DNA of 33,506 nucleotides from Erythrobacter sp. (GTDB taxonomy: Bacteria > Pseudomonadota > Alphaproteobacteria > Sphingomonadales > Sphingomonadaceae), in the NCBI GenBank assembly GCA_030731635.1, contig JANQTR010000227.1:1-33506 (forward strand), written 5' to 3'. The number at the start of each line of letters is the position of its first letter. The first letter of the stretch is position 1. The position numbers were made by a program, and so were the translations under genes. The notes under the pieces are model-generated. The model ran no database searches, had not been told where the DNA came from, and saw only the letters and a list, made by a program, of their open reading frames with translations. Of the stretch, positions 15,126-17,798 are shown one piece after another.

Positions 15126-15323
15126 TGATTGCCGGTTCGCCCAGAACCAACATCAGCGCACAGGCTTTCGGCGCGGGTCACTTATGGACGAACGCCTGAA
15201 CGGCGATTTTCGGCAGTAGAATTACAGACACCCGCCGCCCGCTAAGCAGGGGCAACACTCTGCTATCCCCGGCGCGCACTTTGGCGTAGTCTTGCTCCAA
15301 GCATATGGCCTTGGGAGCCCATC

Positions 15324-15728
15324 ATCGAAAAACGCCTGATCTATCGTTCGCAGCCATTCGGCTTTGACAAGTCCATGCTGGCGGGCATTTTGTCAGCAGC
15401 GCGGCGCAACAATCCGCAGCAGGGCATCACTGGCGCACTGATCTGCCGGCACGATGTTTATCTCCAACTGATCGAAGGCCCGGCGGAGGCGATTGATTCG
15501 CTTTACGCCCGCATACTGTCCGATGATCGTCACACCAACGTTGATCTGTTGCTGACAGAAGACATGGGCGAACGAATGTTTCCGGCTTGGGCAATGCTCG
15601 ATGATGAAGCGCCATCGCTGTTCTGGTCAGCGCAGGATGTGGCCGCAGGCGCGCTTGAAAAAGCCAGCCCGGAAGAACTGCGTGCACCGTTTCTGCGGCT
15701 GAGCGCAGCCCATCCGGGTGCGGGTTAG
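15324..15728 (+). CDS. BLUF-domain blue-light photoreceptor, apparently started at a non-canonical ATC
   Basis: Residues match a single BLUF domain that binds FAD and senses blue light: LIYRS (flavin-contacting Tyr), NNPQQGITG (Asn), VYLQLIEGP (Gln) and RMFPAWAM (Trp and Met). The first ATG in frame is 15375, but that drops the first strand with the essential Tyr. The frame is open from TAA 15243 and has no ATG, GTG or TTG before 15375. A well-placed GGGAG (15313-15317) sits six bases before ATC 15324, so start there is proposed, giving 134 residues. A decayed start codon or sequence error are alternatives. There is no output domain, so it is a short BLUF protein acting through a partner. It is convergent with ribE, overlapping four bases. 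Confidence 0.75.
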   Translation: MEKRLIYRSQPFGFDKSMLAGILSAARRNNPQQGITGALICRHDVYLQLIEGPAEAIDSLYARILSDDRHTNVDLLLTEDMGERMFPAWAMLDDEAPSLFWSAQDVAAGALEKASPEELRAPFLRLSAAHPGAG

Positions 15729-16348
15729 ACCGCAGTGACGAGGCTTTGCATCCGCTTGAGATAACGTGCCAGCACGTCGATTTCGAGGTTCACCTTGTCG
15801 TCCACCACCAACAGACCCAGCGTTGTCACGGCTGCTGTGTGCGGGATGATGTTGAGCAGGAAATCGCAAGTGCCATCCGCCCGGTCGCGCACATCGTTGA
15901 CGGTAAGCGACACGCCGTTGACGGTGATAGAGCCTTTTTCCGCGATATAAGGGGCCATTTCAGCCCGCGCGCGGATTGCGACCTGCCAACTGCCGCCTTC
16001 CTGCCGCACCAGCACCACCGTGCCGACCGAATCGACATGGCCGGTGACGATATGCCCGCCCATTTCGTCACCCAGCCTGAGCGAGGGCTCGAGGTTCAGC
16101 TTTTCGCCTGCCTGCCACATGCCGGGGACAGTGCGGCTGACGCTTTCGCCAGACAGATCGACATCAAACCAGGCATTGCCCGCGCTCCCGCCGCGCTCGA
16201 CCACCGTCAGGCATACGCCAGAACAGGCAATCGAGGCGCCAATATCGATCCGCGCCGGATCAAGCGGGGCCGTGATCCTAAGCCGCAAATCGCCGCGCTG
16301 TTCAGCCGTGGCGATGGTGCCGATGGCAGTGACGATACCGGTGAACAT
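15725..16348 (-). CDS. ribE: Riboflavin synthase, alpha subunit
   Basis: The 207-residue enzyme has two tandem lumazine-binding barrels. The N-terminus MFTGIVTAIG is the family hallmark; the first barrel has GASIACSGVCLTVVE, and the second has GGHIVTGHVDSVGTV, then GSITVNGVSLTVNDV and IPHTAAVTTLG. It dismutates two molecules of 6,7-dimethyl-8-ribityllumazine to riboflavin plus the pyrimidinedione, in the cytoplasm. It is 17 bp downstream of ribD on the same strand, so both are likely in one transcript. ribBA and ribH are not in the window. The naming ribE/ribC varies by species. Confidence 0.96.
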   Translation of the reverse strand: MFTGIVTAIGTIATAEQRGDLRLRITAPLDPARIDIGASIACSGVCLTVVERGGSAGNAWFDVDLSGESVSRTVPGMWQAGEKLNLEPSLRLGDEMGGHIVTGHVDSVGTVVLVRQEGGSWQVAIRARAEMAPYIAEKGSITVNGVSLTVNDVRDRADGTCDFLLNIIPHTAAVTTLGLLVVDDKVNLEIDVLARYLKRMQSLVTAV

Positions 16349-16365: not shown

Positions 16366-17316
16366 TTAATCTCGAATGCGCAGATAGGCGCTGAAGGTGT
16401 CGCTGCCAAGCTGACGATGTTCGCGGCTGCGCCAGCGGCCGTGCGCTTCGGCAAGGCTAGTGATGTCTAGCGCGCCAAGGCTGCGGCGGCCATCGCCGAT
16501 CAGGATCGGCGCGGTGTAAAGGTGCAATTCATCAACGAGATCAGCGCCGAGGAAGGCAGCAGCAGTGTCTGCCCCGCCTTCGACGTAGCAAGTGAGCACA
16601 TCATGAAGGCTCGCGATGTCCTGCGGCGCGGCGATGCCGGTAACGCCGATAGGGGCAGCCCCGCGGGTCAGCACCACCCGCTGCGGGGAGCGCGCCTCAA
16701 GCCCTGGCAGGCGCACGTCGAGGCGCGGTGCATCCGTCCGCCATGTCCCGCCGCCCACCAGAATAGCATCATGCTGCGCGCGCATGGCGTGAACATGCGC
16801 GCGGGCCGCCTCGCCCGTAATCCATTGGCTCGTGCCATCAGCCATCGCGATACAGCCATCCAGCGATGTCGCCAGTTTCAGCGTCACCCACGGACGTCCT
16901 GCGCGCTGCAGCATCAAAAATCCGGCGAGGCTGGCGGCAGAAGCAGGGTCACCCAGCAAGCGAACGGCAATTCCCGCCGCTTCAATGCGAGCAATGCCTT
17001 GTCCAGCAGTGCGCGGATCGGGGTCGTGCTGTCCGATCACCACCCGCGCGGGCTTTGCAGCGACAATCAGGTCGGTGCAGGCCGGGCCGCGCGGCGATTG
17101 GTGCGCGCAGGGCTCCAGCGTGACGTAAAGCGTTGCTTCGGCCAGGATCTCAGCGGTCAAACCCGCCAGCGCCGCCGCTTCGGCGTGGGGGCGCCCCCCG
17201 GCGGCGGTCCAGCCGCGTGCGATCACCCGCCCCCGGTGGACCACCAATGCGGCAACCCCGGGATTGGGACGGGACAGCGGGCGCGCACGCAAAGCCAGCT
17301 GCGCTGCGGCAGCCAT
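16366..17316 (-). CDS. ribD: Bifunctional riboflavin biosynthesis deaminase/reductase RibD
   Basis: The 316-residue product has an N-terminal cytidine-deaminase-like zinc domain, HAEAAAL (about 44-50) and PCAHQSPRGPACTDL (about 71-85), and a C-terminal reductase domain with WVTLKLATSLDGCIA and DAILVGGGTWRTDAPRLDVR. It deaminates 2,5-diamino-6-ribosylamino-4-pyrimidinone phosphate and then reduces the ribosyl side chain with NADPH. The domain order and motifs are standard though slightly shorter than the about 360-residue average. The start ATG 17316 lies 32 bp after the coiled-coil gene stop; no other usual start is in frame upstream because a TGA stops it. Confidence 0.95.
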   Translation of the reverse strand: MAAAAQLALRARPLSRPNPGVAALVVHRGRVIARGWTAAGGRPHAEAAALAGLTAEILAEATLYVTLEPCAHQSPRGPACTDLIVAAKPARVVIGQHDPDPRTAGQGIARIEAAGIAVRLLGDPASAASLAGFLMLQRAGRPWVTLKLATSLDGCIAMADGTSQWITGEAARAHVHAMRAQHDAILVGGGTWRTDAPRLDVRLPGLEARSPQRVVLTRGAAPIGVTGIAAPQDIASLHDVLTCYVEGGADTAAAFLGADLVDELHLYTAPILIGDGRRSLGALDITSLAEAHGRWRSREHRQLGSDTFSAYLRIRD

Positions 17317-17348
17317 CCAGTCATGATCGGCAGGGATGGGGCCTGCAG

Positions 17349-17798
17349 CTATTGTTTGGCGCTTTCAGCCAGGCGCTGGGCCATTTCTTCGCGCTGCTTG
17401 GCCGCTGCGGCCTCTTCGGCAGCGCGTTCCGCATCGGCCTTGCGCTCGATGGCTTCGACATCCATCCCGGCGGCTGTTCCCAACGCCTTGTAAAGTTCGC
17501 GCTTGCGGGTCGCAGCGCGCTCATCTGCGGCGGCACGCAGGTCCTTGACCTCCTGATTGGTGCGGTTTTCAGCGACGATCTCGGCATCGCTGCGGGCCGG
17601 GTCGAGTGTGGTGATGTAGGTCACCTTGGGTCGTTCGGGCTCACCATAGACCGTGCTGCCAGACGCCCAATACAGCATGACAGCAACCGGCAGGATCGAC
17701 AGCCCAAGGATGGGCCAGCGATAGGGCTGCGGCCGCCGGATCACAGTCCAGAAATCAGCAAGGCCGGGGGCCGGATTGAAGCGGGAAGGGGTCTTCAT
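17349..17798 (-). CDS. Single-pass membrane protein with C-terminal coiled coil, function unknown
   Basis: The 149-residue product has one hydrophobic segment (YRWPILGLSILPVAVMLYW, about 26-44) and then a soluble part, with a charged Ala/Glu/Lys/Arg-rich helix from about 80 to the end that should form a coiled coil. The segment TVYGEPERPKVTYITTLDPARSDAEIVAENRTNQ follows the membrane helix and looks conserved-like rather than random. I do not recognise a named family. It lies between a YgjP-like peptidase gene and ribD in a compact minus-strand run. Topology is probably N-terminus in the cytoplasm and coiled coil in the periplasm. Confidence 0.75.
   Translation of the reverse strand: MKTPSRFNPAPGLADFWTVIRRPQPYRWPILGLSILPVAVMLYWASGSTVYGEPERPKVTYITTLDPARSDAEIVAENRTNQEVKDLRAAADERAATRKRELYKALGTAAGMDVEAIERKADAERAAEEAAAAKQREEMAQRLAESAKQ

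Follow-up and report, generated by a model that had tools for sequence, protein, structure and literature searches.

A conserved AUC codon is very likely the start of a BLUF photoreceptor gene in Erythrobacter and its close relatives

Few of the start codons known in bacteria are as rare or as weak as AUC. To our knowledge, AUC starts are nearly missing from bacterial annotation, partly since gene callers usually disallow them. In E. coli, infC starts at AUU, and the AUU start of pcnB is a near-cognate codon that limits expression. AUU, AUC, and AUA all serve as bacterial starts and are discriminated by IF3 (PMC4611024), which disfavors weak third-base pairs in vitro (PMC10158994). The S. aureus infC start is AUA (PMC13009471). 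Staphylococcal ccpN (AUA) and cvfC1 (AUU) are non-infC genes with a near-cognate start and a Shine-Dalgarno sequence, both of them conserved; conserved AUU and AUA starts gave about 10% of the AUG output in S. aureus reporters, which for ccpN and cvfC1 meant about 10-fold less output than AUG (PMC13009471).

Here, we describe a BLUF gene that very likely starts at AUC. It is located in a stretch of 33,506 nucleotides of Erythrobacter sp. DNA (contig JANQTR010000227.1), hereafter the window. As in infC, the start is a conserved near-cognate AUN codon preceded by a Shine-Dalgarno sequence, here AUC in place of AUU or AUA. The infC start is discriminated by IF3, and the BLUF AUC presumably is as well. 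However, infC encodes IF3 and is autoregulated for that reason, whereas the product of the BLUF gene is a receptor, not a translation factor. The gene also resembles ccpN and cvfC1 but belongs to another phylum, uses another codon, and has an ordinary GGAG instead of an extended Shine-Dalgarno sequence. The pcnB gene differs in its codon and encodes an unrelated protein. The BLUF AUC thus joins the short list of conserved near-cognate starts comprising infC, pcnB, ccpN, and cvfC1.

We know of no short BLUF photoreceptor gene with a reported near-cognate start. Our literature searches found nothing linking BLUF with non-canonical start codons, and the literature on ATC or AUC start codons was almost entirely mitochondrial and eukaryotic. 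As far as these searches show, a conserved near-cognate start is new both for AUC and for a photoreceptor. Light-driven transcription has been described for a Porphyrobacter with five BLUF-domain proteins (PMC10674011); nothing ties the present BLUF gene to it.

Translated from the ATC, the product has 134 amino acids. The Pfam BLUF domain spans residues 4 to 91 (profile positions 3 to 91 of 92; 94.4 bits; cut-off, 25), and residues 4 to 57 align to Slr1694 (PDB 2hfn) in a way that keeps the tyrosine of LIYRS and the glutamine of LQLIEG in register. Judged by these matches, the product is a short stand-alone BLUF blue-light receptor. It shares with Slr1694/PixD and BlrB the fold family, both of these residues in register, the stand-alone domain, and the short C-terminal tail. 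The original prediction was that the flavin-contacting tyrosine is encoded ahead of the first ATG, and the alignment to Slr1694 agrees: a start at that ATG would lose it. The window sequence also confirmed that no ATG, GTG, or TTG is present in frame from the TAA at 15243-15245 to the ATG at 15375, and that GGGAG is located six bases from the ATC, at the coordinates predicted (Table 1). A further ATC at 15321, immediately 5' of the one at 15324, is not the conserved one.

Table 1. Features of the BLUF locus and of the neighboring rib genes in the window
Feature	Position	Strand	Details
Promoter-like element TATCCC-N17-TAGTCT	15264..15292	+	From upstream alignment; spacing constant across orthologues; promoter function putative
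Shine-Dalgarno GGGAG	15313..15317	+	6-base spacer to ATC; inside conserved GGGAGCC block
BLUF photoreceptor gene	15324..15728	+	134 codons plus stop; Pfam PF04940, 4.6e-27; BLUF relatives in PDB; synonymous-biased change
ATC start codon (very likely)	15324..15326	+	Same in 17/17 clade sequences; 0 changes at each base
First canonical in-frame ATG (codon 18)	15375..15377	+	Not the start; would remove first strand with conserved Tyr
ribE, riboflavin synthase alpha chain	15725..16348	-	Convergent with BLUF; Pfam Lum_binding 1.9e-45
ribD	16366..17352	-	Apparent start ATA 17352-17350, overlapping the stop of the upstream gene (ATAG)

We searched for orthologues in 121 relatives and 114 genomes of the genus and by a scan of named genomes. 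The closest orthologues, from the same genus and 79 to 86% identical to the window orthologue, form an ATC clade of 17 sequences from 16 genomes, including that of the window (loci L001-L011, L031-L035, and L096; G068 contributes two copies). Its named members are Erythrobacter and Porphyrobacter, for example, Porphyrobacter sp. AAP60 and an Erythrobacter sanguineus MAG. A comparison of start codons had been proposed as a check, and all 17 sequences proved to share ATC at the corresponding codon, preceded by a conserved Shine-Dalgarno sequence. Remoter orthologues (52 to 77%) have ATG, GTG, or TTG at the equivalent codon or at most one codon away, suggesting that the start is usually found here and that weak starts recur. 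L046 has an ATG one codon earlier than the ATC of the clade, and in L060 and L061 an ATG is present just ahead of the start position; the latter two leave the ATC result unchanged. In G026, ATC was found at a shifted start, and its sister G063 has ATG in a near-identical context. The tree requires ATC to have arisen at least twice, with the gain in G026 independent of the main clade. In the orthologue L055 (G392), which is perhaps decayed, the start position is occupied by GTT and a TGA interrupts the gene.

Changes per site at codon positions 1/2/3 were counted on a tree built from the nucleotide sequences of the 17 clade members. Codons 2 to 17 showed 0.50/0.31/3.44 changes per site, and codons 18 to 127 showed 1.05/0.75/3.30. 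By contrast, the upstream codons -13 to -5 showed 6.0/6.2/6.9 changes per site without codon periodicity, and the codon directly before the ATC showed 7/6/6. The ATC itself showed none at any position. Since codons 2 to 17 behave like coding sequence and the upstream codons do not, protein-level constraint begins exactly at the ATC. Furthermore, the GGGAGCC block at -11 to -5 had 0 to 2 changes per site, compared to about 6 in its flanks. Taken together, the position of the ATC, its conservation, the constraint on codons 2 to 17, and the lack of an alternative start, all established by comparison, lead us to accept with high confidence that AUC at 15324 is the start codon, as originally predicted.

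Could the ATC instead be an internal isoleucine codon, with lineage-specific upstream starts, canonical or other, providing an N-terminal extension? ATC is the most frequent isoleucine codon here, and 8 of the 17 sequences have some canonical codon in frame upstream, for example, ATG at -8 in L007 and ATG at -6 plus GTG at -3 in L031. However, these codons are at non-matching places. The other nine sequences, the window among them, have no upstream ATG, GTG, or TTG in frame; six of these nine also lack CTG, ATT, ATA, or another ATC, and in L006 a stop codon is present six codons upstream of the ATC. These genes therefore have no other start available. The free variation of the upstream codons and the Shine-Dalgarno block at start distance from the ATC argue in the same direction, and we consider an internal isoleucine quite improbable. 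An upstream extension of BLUF is rejected in view of in-frame stops and the absence of constraint. Still less probable is a truncated protein starting at ATG 15375, with codons 1 to 17 as the fossil of a lost start. Gene callers restricted to canonical starts would pick this ATG and thereby cut off the strand with the chromophore-contacting tyrosine, but codons 2 to 17, which encode this residue, are under constraint no weaker than that on the rest of the gene, and codon 18 is ATA in two and GTG in one of the clade sequences (ATG in 14). Finally, the source genome of the window is a 271-contig assembly that is 73% complete, and the original prediction itself had named a missed base, an indel restoring an upstream start, or a decayed gene as possible refutations. 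These fail, since the same ATC is present in independent assemblies of 16 genomes, single-contig and isolate genomes among them, the reading frame is constrained with a strong synonymous bias, and the clade copies lack internal stops. A missed base or indel is ruled out by the 16 genomes, and the probability of sequencing error, misassembly, or decay is negligible. We likewise reject a frameshift starting from the ATG at 15305, which is out of frame and not kept in the orthologues.

Given an AUC start, the conserved GGGAGCC block would position the ribosome at AUC. We infer that the initiator tRNA would then read the codon with a third-position mismatch and insert fMet, giving a protein that begins fMet-EKRLIYRSQ. 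Proofreading by IF3 would make initiation inefficient, as for other codons without a 3' G, and, AUC being among the poorest initiators, BLUF output may be very low. The codon could then act as a fixed attenuator that keeps the receptor copy number low and couples its dose to initiation stringency. Such a low-dose role, with its low output, IF3 sensitivity, and selection, is in our estimation somewhat favored; the ATC is no sequencing error but a real start, probably one selected for low output. A doubtful but still sizable alternative, which shares the AUC start and denies only the low-dose role, is that the codon is effectively neutral, a single ancestral mutation that was tolerated and has no regulatory role. 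A single gain accounts for the main clade, and third-base invariance is too common to prove selection: among 69 degenerate codons whose residue is invariant, 7 also lack any third-base change, which makes the invariance weak evidence of selection for AUC over AUU. On the other hand, each of the 13 fourfold sites at which C is in the majority has undergone change within the clade, with a gain of G somewhere at 9 of them. ATG thus had the opportunity to arise at the start codon, yet no reversion to ATG occurred. The independent gain of ATC in G026 and the recurrent GTG and TTG starts in the family also speak against neutrality. The unchanged C of the ATC, set against the 13 fourfold sites, suggests, short of proof, selection favoring AUC over AUU, or acting against ATG. 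Kept over a 17-sequence clade and gained a second time within the family, AUC offers a clean natural case in which to ask if poor start codons serve bacteria to set a low receptor dose.

Upstream of the gene, the aligned promoter-like element reads CTATCcC ... GTAGnCT (15263-15292). Across 1.16 Mb from four genomes, its strict form (CTATC-N18..20-GTARnCT) was seen nowhere except before BLUF. A sigma-70 consensus scan gave no match; the element loosely resembles what we take to be an ECF/ChrR-type promoter (TGATCC-N18-TAAGAA). Its location about 30 bases upstream implies a short leader. The start region folded more weakly than shuffled sequences in all 17 cases (z, 0.2 to 2.0), and thus a structural RNA switch at the BLUF start is unsupported. 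In a 100-nt fold, the Shine-Dalgarno bases showed appreciable predicted pairing, a point against the AUC reading.

The ribE start is located about 1.0 to 1.1 kb from BLUF in 11 of the 17 ATC-clade loci, and ribE was not found within the flanks of about 1.9 to 3.4 kb in the remoter orthologue loci examined. Since ribE was found convergent with BLUF only in ATC-clade loci, its relocation and the BLUF ATC may be of similar age. In the ATC clade, ribD also converges on BLUF. Its apparent ATA start is 12 codons before the first ATG (17352-17316, minus strand), and the gene is conserved in frame ahead of this ATG, back to the ATA. With translation from the ATA, the deaminase match begins at profile position 4 instead of 8. 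The ATA overlaps the upstream stop as ATAG or ATAA in 23 same-genus sequences (those readable by pattern), an arrangement that suggests termination-reinitiation at a near-cognate codon. Because the overlap constrains two of the three bases, the conservation of this ATA carries less weight than the conservation of the BLUF ATC.

In all 30 genomes of the genus searched (L066-L095), the region ahead of the first infC ATG contains a conserved AGGAG, then an ATA and further codons that are likewise conserved, and no canonical start is aligned upstream of this ATA. Thus, infC in this genus apparently starts at AUA. The original prediction had connected the ATC to initiation-factor control; this link is plausible, and it becomes somewhat likelier given that infC of the genus apparently starts at AUA. 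One could go further and suppose that, since BLUF (AUC), IF3 (AUA), and RibD (AUA; an enzyme of the pathway supplying the flavin of BLUF) all apparently start at codons discriminated by IF3, light sensing in this clade would be gated by initiation stringency. We regard this as unlikely; if true, changed IF3 activity would shift the BLUF receptor, IF3, and RibD together.

Finally, 158 families aligned across four genomes and 104 aligned across two were surveyed, with manual reading of flagged families. A constraint test was used, because a filter for families without a shared canonical start misses BLUF, owing to its internal ATG at codon 18. Of these about 262 families, only BLUF and ribD have constrained codons before the first shared canonical start without a better explanation, and starts of this type are thus rare. 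The ribD and infC cases illustrate that comparative scans can uncover near-cognate starts. A separate observation concerns surE, for which the loci of G128 and G148 were among those compared: its start is seemingly CTG in two species and ATG in a third.
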